This document shows positions 56,854-64,000 of a DNA stretch of 64,000 bases, piece after piece. The notes beneath the pieces were generated by a model. The model searched no databases. It was not told the origin of the DNA and saw only the letters and a list, made by a program, of their open reading frames with translations. Source of the DNA: Actinopolyspora saharensis (lineage in GTDB: Bacteria > Actinomycetota > Actinomycetes > Mycobacteriales > Pseudonocardiaceae); assembly GCF_900100925.1 (NCBI RefSeq), contig NZ_FNKO01000001.1, forward strand, positions 620,001 to 684,000. Reading direction: 5' to 3'. Numbering within the stretch: position 1 is the first letter of the stretch; every line of letters begins with the position of its first letter. The position numbers and the translations under genes are program-made.

Positions 56854-57447
56854 TCACGCCTGCGTCGCGGTGTTGCGCGCGGCCGCGGGCAGTTCGCTGT
56901 CGGGGGCTGCCGGCCAGCGTCGTGCGTCGGGGCCGAGGGCGCGGAGCTGGTGGACCTGTTGCAAGCACCAGGGGGAGAGCTCGGCGAGCTCGTCGGTCGC
57001 GGCGGTTTCGGCGAACTCGTCCCAGGGGGTCCACTGGAAGGCCTCGACCTCGGTGGGGTCGGGGTGCGGCACGGCCCGGGTGCGAGCGCGCAGCACCGGG
57101 CACATCTCGTTTTCCACGGTGCCGTTGTCCATGACGGCGCGGTAGCGGAACGTGGGCAGGATCAGTTCGACGGCCTCGACGGCCAGTCCCAGTTCCTCGT
57201 GCAGGCGACGCGTGACGGCCGTGGTGAGGGCTTCGCCGGGGGCGGGATGTCCGCAGCAGGAGTTGGTCCACACCCCGGGCCAGGTGGTTTTGCTCGCCGC
57301 GCGGCGGGTCAGCAGGAGTTGGTTGTCCCCGTCGATGACGTAGCAGGAGAAGGCCAGGTGCAGTGGGGTGTGCTCGTGGTGCACGGTGGCCTTGTCGGCG
57401 ACGCCGGTGGCCTGGCCGGACTCGTCGAGCAGGACGACTTCTTCCAC
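56854..57447 (-). CDS. idi: Isopentenyl-diphosphate delta-isomerase, type I
   Basis: 197 residues. The Nudix-related type I IPP isomerase motifs are present: the catalytic Cys65 in TNSCCGHP, the RLHEELGL segment and the catalytic Glu in ENEMCP. It converts IPP to DMAPP, the primer for prenyl chains. The start is GTG at 57447, six bases after AAGGAA. It is transcribed away from the encapsulin/terpene synthase operon across 292 bases, so it most likely supports that pathway. Confidence 0.94.
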   Translation of the reverse strand: MEEVVLLDESGQATGVADKATVHHEHTPLHLAFSCYVIDGDNQLLLTRRAASKTTWPGVWTNSCCGHPAPGEALTTAVTRRLHEELGLAVEAVELILPTFRYRAVMDNGTVENEMCPVLRARTRAVPHPDPTEVEAFQWTPWDEFAETAATDELAELSPWCLQQVHQLRALGPDARRWPAAPDSELPAAARNTATQA

Positions 57448-57739
57448 TGGGGTTCCTTCCTGGCGCGCGGGTGAACGCGCTCATCGTGGCGTTGGTGCCG
57501 GGGTGTGTCGAGCACTGGGCTGCGAGTGTGATTATCCGAATACGACTTGTGTTAGTCCATTTTGATCAACTAGCTTACTCCACTGGATGGCTGGTGATCA
57601 TCTGTCTGGGTGGTCGTCGGCTGTCGTCCTCCGCCGGGGAGGAGCATGTTTGGAATCTGCTGGGGTGAGTTCGCTACGCGGAACCGACTGATCCGACCGG
57701 ACGGACGGGAATGCGTGACATGCGTCGGATTGGTGGTAC
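57448..57739. promoter_or_regulatory. Divergent promoter region, idi / encapsulin operon
   Basis: About 290 bases, with an AT-rich core near 57520-57610 that is unusual in this DNA. TTGATCAA at 57562-57569 is a perfect palindrome, and a second TGATCA occurs at 57595-57600. Both divergent transcription units probably start here; no specific regulator can be named. Confidence 0.5.
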
Positions 57740-59164
57740 GTGGTGACAAGCACCGAGTCGGTTTCCGGTCAGCCGAACGAGGACGGGCAGCAGTCGCCGT
57801 TGAGTCTGGGCACGGCGGCGGCGCGGAATCTGTCGACGACGACGAAGACGCCGCCGCAGATGCAGTCGATCACCTCGCGGTGGTTGCTGCGCCTGTTGCC
57901 GTGGGTGCAGGCCTCGGGCGGGGCCTACCGGGTCAACCGCAGGCTGAGCTACCAGCTCGGGGACGGGCTGGTGACGTTCTCCAACACCGGCTCGACGGTG
58001 CGGGTGGTCCCGGGCGAGTTGTGCGAGCTGCCCGCGCTGCGGGGCTTCGACGACACCACGGTGCTGGAGGGACTGGCCGAGCGCTTCGTGCAGCGCGAGT
58101 ACGCCGCCGGTGACGTGATCGCCGAGGCGGGCCGCCCCGACGACGAGGTCGTGCTCATCGCCCACGGCAAGGTGAACAAGCTCGGCACGGGTCCCTACGG
58201 GGAGCAGACGGTGCTGGGCGTGCTGGCCGGGGGCGAGCACTTCGGCGGTCAGGTGCTGGCCGAGGGCCGGGGCAGCTGGGAGTTCACCGCCAAGGCCGTG
58301 ACTCCGTGCACGGTGCTGGCGCTGCCGCGCGAGTCCGCCCAGGAGGTGGTGGACCGGTCCGAGGCGCTGCGCAGCCACCTCGCCCAGCTGCGGAGCGGTC
58401 CGCAGGGGGCACACAACGAGGACGGCGAGTCCGCGGTCTCGGTGGCCGCCGGGCACGCCGGCGAGCCGGACCTGCCGGGCACGTTCGTCGACTACGAGCT
58501 CAAGCCCCGCGAGTACGAGCTCAGCGTGGCCCAGACGGTGCTGCGCGTGCACAGCCGGGTCGCGGATCTGTACAACAAGCCGATGGACCAGACCGAGCAG
58601 CAGCTGCGGCTGACCATTCAGGAGCTGCGCGAGGAGCAGGAGCGGGAGCTGGTCAACAACCGCGAGTTCGGCCTGCTGCACAACGCCGACCTGCGCCAGC
58701 GCATCCACACCCGCACCGGCCCGCCCACTCCGGACGACATGGACGAGCTGCTGTCGCTGGTGTGGAAGGAGCCGGGCTTCTTCCTGGCGCACCCGCGGGC
58801 CATCGCCGCGTTCGGCCGCGAGTGCAGCCGCCGCGGGTTGTACCCGGCCAATGTGGACGTCGGTGGGCACCAGGTGCCCGCGTGGCGGGGCGTGCCGCTG
58901 TTCCCGTGCAACAAGCTGCCGATGAGCAACCAGCGGACCACCTCGATCATGCTGATGCGCACCGGTGAGGCCAACCAGGGCGTGGTCGGGCTGCACCAGA
59001 CCGGTATCCCGGACGAGTACGAGTCGGGGCTGTCGGTGCGGTTCATGGGCATCAACGAGAAGGCCGTCATCTCGTACCTGGTCTCGACCTACTACTCGGC
59101 CGCGGTGCTGGTGCCGGACGCGCTGGCGGTGCTGGACGACGTCCAGACCGGCCGGGAAAGCTGA
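57740..59164 (+). CDS. Family 2B encapsulin shell protein, copy 1
   Basis: 474 residues. The sequence has the HK97-type encapsulin fold of family 2B: an N-terminal arm ([23 protein letters not shown]), then [10 protein letters not shown] and [10 protein letters not shown] cyclic-nucleotide-binding-like insertion (about residues 105-220, AHGKVNKL and [10 protein letters not shown]) follows, then the capsid core with [17 protein letters not shown] and the C-terminal [16 protein letters not shown]. Such proteins assemble into nanocompartments that enclose terpene cyclases. The terpene synthase gene starts two bases after this stop. Two adjacent GTG starts (57740, 57743) are possible. Confidence 0.92.
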
Positions 59165-62995: not shown

Positions 62996-63008
62996 AAGGA
63001 GCACGGAC

Positions 63009-64000
63009 ATGGCCAGCCCCGATGTGCTCCCGCACGACGTCCCGGTCCAGGAGGCCTATCGCGCCCTGGATCTCGCGCGTGGTCGGGTCGATCCGGCGTT
63101 GCGGTCGGCTCTGGACACGTTGCCCGAGGACATGCGCCACATCGCTCGGTACCAGTTCGGCTGGATCGACGAGCACGGCAACTCCAGCGATGGTTCCGGC
63201 GGCAAGGCGCTGCGTCCCGCGCTGGCGCTGCTGGCCGCCGAGGCGGTCGGTGGCACGGTCGAGGAGGCGTTGCCCGCCGCGGTGGCCGTCGAGCTCGTGC
63301 ACAACTTCTCGCTGCTGCACGACGACGTCATCGACACCGACGCCACGCGTCGCCACCGTCCCACGGCCTGGACCGTGTTCGGGGCCAGCGCGGCGATCCT
63401 GGCCGGTGACGCCCTGCTGTCGCTGGCGTCCGAAGTGCTCGCCGACAGCGGGAACTCGGCCGCGCTGCCCGGGCTGCGGCTGCTGAACTCCACCGTCCAG
63501 GAGCTGATCCAGGGCCAGGTCACGGATCTGGCCTTCGAGCAGCGCAGCGATGTGGACGTCGCCGAGTGCCAACGCATGGCCGAGGCCAAGACCGCGGCGC
63601 TGCTGGCGAGCTCCTGCGAGCTCGGTGCCCTGTTCGCCGGTGCCGATGAGCAGCGGAGCGGGCACCTGCGCCGCTTCGGGCACGATCTCGGGCTGGCCTT
63701 CCAGCACGTCGACGACCTGCTCGGCATCTGGGGCGATCCCGCGGTCACGGGCAAGTCCGCCTACTCCGACCTGCACGCCCGCAAGAAGACCCTGCCGGTG
63801 GTGTTCGCGCTGAACTCGGGCAGTTCCGCCGGGCAGCGGCTGGCCGAGCACTACCACCAGCCGCCGACCTCGGAGTCGGATCTGACCGGCACCGCCGAGC
63901 TCGTCGACGCCGCCGGTGGGCGGGAGTGGAGTCACGCCCGCACCGACCAGCTGCTCGCCCAGGCCCTGGAGCAGCTCGAGGCGGCGGGGCTGACCGCCCG
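63009..64000 (+). CDS. Polyprenyl diphosphate synthase, partial
   Basis: About 330 residues are visible; the end lies beyond the window. The first Asp-rich motif begins at Asp105 (LLHDDVIDTD), the second at Asp235 (QHVDDLLGIWGD), and GGKALRP binds the homoallylic diphosphate. Phe lies five residues before the first Asp-rich motif, compatible with a short C15-C20 product. It starts 13 bases after encapsulin copy 2, with AAAGGAG eight bases upstream. It would supply farnesyl diphosphate (or geranylgeranyl diphosphate) for the encapsulated cyclase. Confidence 0.92.
   Translation, partial: MASPDVLPHDVPVQEAYRALDLARGRVDPALRSALDTLPEDMRHIARYQFGWIDEHGNSSDGSGGKALRPALALLAAEAVGGTVEEALPAAVAVELVHNFSLLHDDVIDTDATRRHRPTAWTVFGASAAILAGDALLSLASEVLADSGNSAALPGLRLLNSTVQELIQGQVTDLAFEQRSDVDVAECQRMAEAKTAALLASSCELGALFAGADEQRSGHLRRFGHDLGLAFQHVDDLLGIWGDPAVTGKSAYSDLHARKKTLPVVFALNSGSSAGQRLAEHYHQPPTSESDLTGTAELVDAAGGREWSHARTDQLLAQALEQLEAAGLTA

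Follow-up and report, generated by a model that had tools for sequence, protein, structure and literature searches.

Two-component Family 2B encapsulin operons, which carry two shell genes (Enc1 and Enc2), have been described by Dutcher, Andreas and Giessen (2025), who counted 503 of them in five types (PMC12407261). In the terpene cyclase/polyprenyl diphosphate synthase (TC/PT) operons the two shell genes can enclose the cyclase gene, and the PT gene then comes immediately downstream of Enc2 (PMC12407261). Andreas and Giessen (2021) recorded 165 systems that combine TC and PT, found isopentenyl diphosphate (IPP) isomerase genes to be enriched near such operons, and noted that geosmin synthase-like (GS-like) cargo has the same 11-residue tag in the interdomain region and again C-terminally, which they proposed to be a targeting sequence (PMC8346489). 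Encapsulins were present in all geosmin clusters of a myxobacterial survey (PMC12224551), and shells beside the geosmin synthase gene geoA were read as regulators in PMC7251104. Geosmin is a volatile common among microbes, and one may ask what need its synthase would have of a shell. Here we analyse a window of 64 kb from Actinopolyspora saharensis (positions 620001-684000 of one contig; the genome is 4.68 Mb in two contigs), at whose right end geoA lies between two encapsulin genes. The gene content, motifs, tags, conservation, co-inheritance and co-occurrence observed in this analysis make it probable, in our view, that Enc1 and Enc2 form a mixed shell with tag-loaded geosmin synthase as its dedicated cargo; the encapsulation, the mixed shell and the flux through it are what we infer from sequence. 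What is new here is a quantified case for geosmin synthase as tagged shell cargo across the class, plus a testable rule for the shell pair.

A TC/PT two-component locus in Actinopolyspora

An initial annotation had proposed that two full-length Family 2B shell proteins flank one geosmin synthase, with a PT downstream and a divergent isomerase gene, idi. All five genes were recovered. The + strand carries, in this order, Enc1 (57740..59164, 474 aa), geoA (59167..61521, 784 aa), Enc2 (61583..62995, 470 aa) and the polyprenyl diphosphate synthase (63009..64000, 347 aa, its gene ending 52 bases past the window and complete in L003, 8009-9052), and idi (56854..57447, - strand) encodes a type-1 isopentenyl-diphosphate isomerase of 197 aa (NF002995, 253 bits; TIGR02150, 165 bits; both above their NCBIfam cut-offs). 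The gaps of 2 bp (Enc1/geoA), 61 bp (geoA/Enc2) and 13 bp (Enc2/PT), the last with AAAGGAG preceding the ATG of the PT gene, are consistent with a single transcript from Enc1 to PT; idi and Enc1 are 292 bp apart. That two-component shells had already been described for terpene cyclase loci also proved correct, the identical gene order being given in PMC12407261. The locus is thus confirmed as a complete, well-preserved representative of the described TC/PT two-component Family 2B layout, and its gene order is not new.

As in those operons the cyclase lies between Enc1 and Enc2, the PT follows Enc2 and the diagnostic motif 1 is of VWK type in one shell and RRR type in the other (PMC12407261). 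The shells studied in that paper come from a xylulose-kinase-type system without cargo, and the window locus adds a divergent idi. Cyanobacterial and myxobacterial systems with geoA and two cnb genes (PMC7251104, PMC12224551) resemble it in having geosmin synthase beside two shell genes with a cyclic nucleotide monophosphate (cNMP)-binding domain, but differ in their order, geoA-shell-shell, and in having no polyprenyl synthase match nearby. The order geoA-shell-shell was also seen at L078, L085, L093, L101, L107 and L122 among the relatives' loci. The encapsulin of structures 9bhu, 9bhv and 9bi0 is likewise a Family 2B shell, of RRR type in our alignment, but its system has one shell gene. 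We take it to be the 2-methylisoborneol synthase system of Streptomyces griseus, with a terpene cyclase cargo that presumably has the same tag core but is of monoterpene type.

Enc1 and Enc2 are a Family 2B shell pair

Enc1 and Enc2 score 775 and 741 bits on NF041163 (encap_f2b, cut-off 400). Both contain the SrpI-like shell domain PF19307 (457 and 441 bits, Pfam) together with the cNMP-binding-like PF00027 insertion that separates Family 2B from 2A, at residues 119-206 of Enc1 (58094..58357, + strand, E 1.7e-14) and 118-205 of Enc2. A whole-genome search with the SrpI-like shell model gave no match in the window genome beyond these two proteins. Compared with solved structures, Enc1 matched 9bje best (708 bits, followed by 9bix with 655 and 9bhu with 622) and Enc2 matched 9bix best (609 bits, followed by 9bhu with 606 and 9bje with 564). 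9bje is Enc1 and 9bix is Enc2 of Streptomyces lydicus, and each window shell matches the corresponding S. lydicus protein better than the other one. As in two-component systems both shell genes lie inside 10 kb, with Enc1 upstream and Enc2 downstream. Motif 1, defined in PMC12407261 as xVWK in Enc1 and RRRx in Enc2, reads LVWK at residues 340-343 of Enc1 (58757..58768, +) and RRRR at residues 339-342 of Enc2 (62597..62608, +), next to TVWK and RRRK in the S. lydicus pair (PMC12407261). In the region of motif 2, a luminal loop of the A-domain that we compared by eye only, VDVGGHQVP of Enc1 looks similar to VDFHGHSLP and LDVDGTRVI of Enc2 to AELHGTDVR. The S. lydicus Enc2 assembles alone whereas its Enc1 alone forms no shells but mixes with Enc2 (PMC12407261), and like behaviour is therefore predicted for the window proteins: Enc2 (RRR) should be able to form shells alone and Enc1 (VWK) should need Enc2.

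Geosmin synthase carries two conserved predicted tags

The gene between the shells encodes a bifunctional germacradienol/geosmin synthase. It has a match to NF041168 (f2_encap_cargo3) and two Terpene_syn_C_2 stretches, and its N-terminal half is matched by germacradienol/geosmin synthases of solved structure (5dw7, 463 bits; also 5dz2). In geosmin synthases, germacradienol is the product of the N-terminal domain and is converted to geosmin by the C-terminal one. Metal-binding motifs are present in both domains (DDHFLE at 94, NDLFSYQRE at 238, DDYFP at 474 and NDLISYQKE at 617) and their aspartate and NSE residues are invariant across 56 GeoA relatives, so that the protein has the two intact cyclase domains of GS-like cargo. 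It resembles this cargo further in carrying a predicted loading tag of 11 residues both in the linker between the domains (tag 1, residues 351-361, 60217..60249, +) and in the C-terminal tail (tag 2, residues 759-769, 61441..61473, +), as described in PMC8346489. To that description we can add that the tag pattern is restricted to geoA in the whole window genome: a degenerate DNA version of P-[T/S]-G-[L/I/M/F]-G-T-x-A matched the 4.68 Mb exactly twice, both times in geoA, while the reversed pattern used as control matched 0 times. The same scan over 249 family genomes (151 with a match) was not used beyond the window genome because the reversed control also matched many genomes, and non-geoA sites were hit as well.

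In the alignment of 56 GeoA the tags are better conserved than the enzyme around them. Mean column identity is 0.78 for tag 1 and 0.80 for tag 2 (11 columns each), as compared to 0.71 for the cyclase domains; outside the tags the linker averages 0.44 and the tail 0.19. The segments flanking the tags are gap-rich and poorly conserved, as might be expected if the tags lie in disordered stretches. The tag is also mostly retained in relatives' GeoA without an adjacent shell, a second addition to PMC8346489. We surveyed 160 fetched GeoA loci. At 39 of them the fetched stretch includes a shell, 118 have a shell elsewhere in the genome and 3 belong to genomes counted as shell-less. At least one tag was found in 39/39 of the first group (both tags in 31/39), in 108/118 of the second and in all three of the last. 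Two loci (L298, 2931-4995; L302, 6375-8445) have a pair of neighbouring single-domain genes between their two shells in place of one GeoA-like cyclase gene. Both halves end in a GPTGLGT-type tag of their own, which would be expected were there one loading peptide per cyclase domain; in the second half of the L302 cyclase the motif patterns matched no catalytic motif.

geoA and Family 2B shells occur together across genomes

We called geoA present at E <= 1e-100 and a shell at E < 1e-120. Among 249 family genomes 159 have both, 84 neither, 2 geoA only and 4 a shell only; the corresponding counts for 394 class genomes are 89, 293, 3 and 9. In seven genera of mixed state (g25, g26, g27, g32, g34, g38 and g3; 70 genomes) the two go together as well, with 42 genomes having both, 25 neither and 3 disagreeing, and one disagreeing genome was found in each of g19, g4 and g16. 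At the E-value used, shell-bearing genomes number 163/249 in the family and 98/394 in the class, and 164 and 108 by the curated cut-off. The extra family genome is probably G049 (1.2e-119); 15 class rows at 1e-101 to 1e-112 were left out, including the 10 that the curated cut-off counts, and among these 15 geoA is present in G267 alone. Shells without geoA occur in eight class genomes of one genus (g86) and in G378. The five geoA-only genomes were considered as a test for loss of the tag, which was set aside: G247 has a weak sub-threshold shell match in its genome (4.3e-78), G347 a shell piece at a contig edge beside geoA and G267 a weaker shell match beside geoA, leaving G141 and G538, both of them tagged and too few for a verdict.

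Since co-occurrence usually comes without adjacency, these counts suggest that GeoA is loaded into shells in trans. This leads us to a broader reading, that geosmin synthesis is compartmentalised in nearly all geosmin-making Actinomycetes, with GeoA tag-loaded into 2B shells encoded anywhere in the genome and a VWK+RRR heteropair maintained; we put it forward tentatively, giving it slightly less than an even chance. Were it correct, geoA, long studied as a free enzyme, would have an almost obligatory shell partner. No statement of a genome-wide pairing of geoA and 2B shells in Actinomycetes was found in the literature searched; as this covered few subscription papers or preprints and no supplements, it is weak evidence of novelty. 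The near-complete and mostly non-adjacent co-occurrence makes the shell question directly testable, and the Actinopolyspora operon is a clean test system, with one shell pair and one protein with the tag pattern in the window genome.

The cassette in relatives

The initial annotation had suggested a comparison of genome neighbourhoods, with shells always beside other cargo and geosmin synthase elsewhere as the outcome that would count against it. Among the close relatives this outcome was not seen, as Enc1-geoA-Enc2-PT is kept in 10/10 sampled Actinopolyspora (the window and nine others). Besides this cassette, 6/10 of them have another geoA copy, and no shell lies inside 4 kb of it. The nearest named relative at the locus is Actinopolyspora biskrensis (91% in the best GeoA segment), and on the shell tree genomes of the window's genus are placed together with Actinopolyspora. 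Outside the window we fetched 140 family GeoA among the places listed, leaving out the eight lowest and one second copy; 29 loci are shell-geoA-shell sandwiches (22 with a PT in reach) and 4 have other shell arrangements. The named loci L043-L122 are the best 80 of 582 and thus biased towards the query.

Trees were made by a quick method with midpoint rooting, taking an SH-aLRT value of 95 as the mark. In the tree of 107 GeoA the window protein falls into a group of nine rows, all of them sandwiches (SH-aLRT 100). In the shell tree the window Enc2 falls into a group of 13 rows from the same cassettes (SH-aLRT 100) and Enc1 into a matching group of 13 rows (SH-aLRT 92, below the mark). Streptomyces oceani lies inside all three groups, and it therefore seems that the cassette moved in one piece. 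Across the complete GeoA tree 6 changes are required to explain the sandwich label, so the sandwich arose or was lost repeatedly.

Proposed mechanism and points against it

Our results point to the following model. Enc1 and Enc2, of HK97 fold with the cNMP-like domain inserted, would most likely co-assemble into one mixed icosahedral shell, and geosmin synthase would be its dedicated cargo, loaded via the two tag copies in interdomain linker and tail. Farnesyl diphosphate (FPP) would enter the shell, the N-terminal domain would turn it into germacradienol and the C-terminal domain would make geosmin inside the shell, from which geosmin would leak out. That the shell serves to hold back the volatile germacradienol intermediate, as the initial annotation had suggested, would be a hypothesis. 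The PT, an untagged but frequent companion of shell pairs, may not be cargo, and idi would be a chance neighbour or a clade-specific helper.

Several observations weigh against this model or its extension to the class. Assembly of mixed shells was shown for the xylulose-kinase-type system of S. lydicus and not for a TC/PT system (PMC12407261). On NF041168 geoA reaches 1167.5 bits over the full profile (1-735), 32.5 below the curated cut-off of 1200. No shell is seen at 107/140 family GeoA loci in the fetched stretch, which covers up to 4 kb on each side and is in some cases cut by contig ends. The pattern finds no tag in 10/118 GeoA whose shell is elsewhere, 6 of which show near variants and 4 nothing clear, and in relatives it also matches outside geoA, for example at two sites in G072 against one control match. 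G141 and G538 have geoA and no 2B shell match yet keep a tag, which is therefore not retained solely where a shell is seen. The looser curated cut-off adds up to 10 shell-bearing class genomes, nearly all without geoA, and could bring the shell-only class genomes up to 19. Finally, the co-occurrence counts are not phylogenetically independent, and shells in trans may serve other cargo.

PT and idi

A wider enclosure was also considered, in which a whole segment of the pathway is compartmentalised, with geosmin synthase and PT both as cargo, perhaps of different shell proteins, and idi feeding them. The PT starts 13 bp after Enc2 and scores 464.4 bits on the encapsulin-cargo PT model of NCBIfam (NF041169, f2_encap_cargo4), above its cut-off of 450, with PF00348 also matched. 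In 20 further shell loci, hand-picked from 20 family genomes, a PT match stands beside the shells in 20/20, and two luminal loops could load two cargoes, as suggested by Dutcher et al. (PMC12407261). Against this, the pattern used finds no tag in the PT. It is also nearer to the geranylgeranyl diphosphate (GGPP) synthase IdsB (343 bits) than to FPP synthase (179 bits), both below cut-off, and may thus not make the substrate of the cyclase. Family 2B PT cargo has a disordered N-terminal domain of 50-100 residues; the N-terminus of the window PT extends 17 residues ahead of the NF041169 match and 59 ahead of the Pfam match. NFSLLH precedes its first Asp-rich motif, and the F at -5 together with the S at -4 would hint at a GGPP-type product, a guide to chain length that we set aside. 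Five other polyprenyl synthases are encoded in the window genome, and three of them are best matched by the farnesyl/geranyl model, below its cut-off. With probable farnesyl/geranyl-type synthases elsewhere and a PT nearer to GGPP synthases, the locus need not supply its own FPP.

The place of idi also speaks against such an enclosure. It stands at the locus in 3/17 genomes only, those of the window, A. biskrensis (G188, locus L043) and Halosaccharopolyspora lacisalsi (G005, L044), and at least one idi above cut-off was found somewhere in the genome in 16/16 other genomes tested; the window genome itself has a second copy at C1:1435965. In the nearest relative (G072, GeoA 96% identical) there is no idi at the locus, and homology ends 188 bp upstream of Enc1. 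We rejected idi as a core part of the locus, as it is missing there in G072 and in the other sampled Actinopolyspora apart from G188. An enclosed pathway segment with PT as second cargo is therefore unlikely in our view, and the claim of the initial annotation that precursor isomerisation, chain building, cyclisation and compartment all come together in one locus was not supported, given idi at 3/17 loci, its second copy elsewhere and an untagged PT nearer to GGPP than to FPP synthases. The mixed shell loaded with geosmin synthase stays the preferred reading.

Two side observations concern these genes. At the end of homology in G072 (L123, about 1568-2377 on the geoA-oriented strand) a transposase-like open reading frame (ORF), recognised by eye without a search, stands in the place of idi. 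In A. biskrensis (L043, 11819-12562) an extra 744 bp with a short ORF lie between Enc2 and PT, and this ORF seems to us to resemble the start of a TnpB-type transposon protein.

A pairing rule for the two shell types

Whether the two shell proteins mix bears on another alternative, in which Enc1 and Enc2 would each build a homomeric compartment of its own, with the cyclase in one and the PT in the other. Separate homomeric shells could not be excluded by Andreas and Giessen (PMC8346489), the window Enc1 and Enc2 sit on separate branches of the shell tree, and geoA loci with a single shell occur. The types found at the fetched loci argue otherwise. Among 62 distinct two-shell loci, 59 combine a VWK with an RRR shell, 1 has two RRR shells (L284) and 2 are unclassed. 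A single full-length shell is in view at 7 geoA loci, and it is of RRR type in 7/7 (L094 and L106 are near contig ends, where a second shell could be missing; two edge-cut loci were excluded). The retention of the VWK+RRR pair at 59/62 loci and the VWK type in 0/7 single-shell loci, together with the finding that S. lydicus Enc1 makes no shells alone but mixes with Enc2 (PMC12407261), make two separate compartments quite improbable.

Mapping the two types onto the shell tree takes 5 changes, with some Enc2 lying inside Enc1 branches (L283-L286, L078 and the L145 group). Over the 97 columns leading up to motif 1 the two shells of L283 show 100% identity to each other and those of L286 97%. Both pairs diverge exactly at the motif (VWK vs RRR) and fall to 62% identity over the next 60 columns, which contain motif 2. 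This looks like gene conversion that stopped at the motif or was selected against past it. The shells of L284, both of RRR type, are 96% identical to each other, which looks like recent gene conversion. VWK and RRR protomers would thus persist even where the shells of a locus became identical up to the motif, which is the heteropair part of the class-wide reading above.

Shells without an intact cyclase

A third alternative would have the shells serve the PT, with geosmin synthase as a bystander in the operon. The order Enc-Enc-PT, without a cyclase gene separating the shells, is seen at many of the 20 further shell loci (some have a two-domain or split cyclase there), geoA is frequently distant from the shells, and a cyclase lying between two shells has lost catalytic motifs in some relatives. 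The better conservation of the GeoA tag than of its own cyclase domains and the tracking of shell presence by geoA across genomes both argue against a bystander, and we find this very improbable beside geosmin synthase as dedicated cargo.

The cNMP-like domains of both shells have no arginine in their phosphate-binding cassettes (21 residues each), where we assume one would be expected in cAMP receptors, a point that also speaks against a regulatory function. Cassettes of this kind are in line with the reported absence of cyclic-nucleotide binding by the cNMP-like domains of such shells (PMC12407261). We rejected as almost certainly wrong the reading behind the older 'cnb' annotation, by which the genes on either side of geoA would encode Crp/Fnr-type regulators of its transcription. 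Their cNMP-binding-like domains, earlier work (PMC7251104) and PDB molecule names might suggest it, but the remainder, and most, of each protein is SrpI-like shell domain (441-457 bits) and the solved relatives are shells.

Second sandwiches and neighbouring genes

Some relatives hold a second shell sandwich. In four Actinopolyspora (L283, 5364-7508, in G165; L284, 7492-9645, in G134; L285, 7490-9634, in G150; L286, about 3761-5980, in G188) a second Enc-cyclase-Enc-PT arrangement contains a two-domain cyclase of 34-43% identity to GeoA. In L283-L285 this cyclase has a degenerate tag, and the Asp-rich and NSE motifs of its C-terminal domain are lost, giving a partly dead cyclase in a shell locus; the upstream shell of L285 matches in two pieces only. 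At L301 (6366-8489, G101) the protein encoded between two shells resembles a two-domain cyclase, but the motifs of both domains are degenerate and it has no tag. Two genomes, G012 and G052, have in addition to a geoA sandwich a second one (L287, 6374-8572; L288, 7449-9635), whose two-domain cyclase is 49% identical with metal-binding motifs that look intact; its product may differ from geosmin.

Two further genes of the window genome are worth mentioning. At C1:1257638-1259838 a second terpene synthase, whose nearest model is selina-4(15),7(11)-diene synthase (below cut-off), stands beside a farnesyl-type polyprenyl synthase. In the window itself the locus is adjoined on the opposite strand (53263-56391, -) by a gene for a 1042-aa protein with a TolB-like beta-propeller and an amidohydrolase domain.

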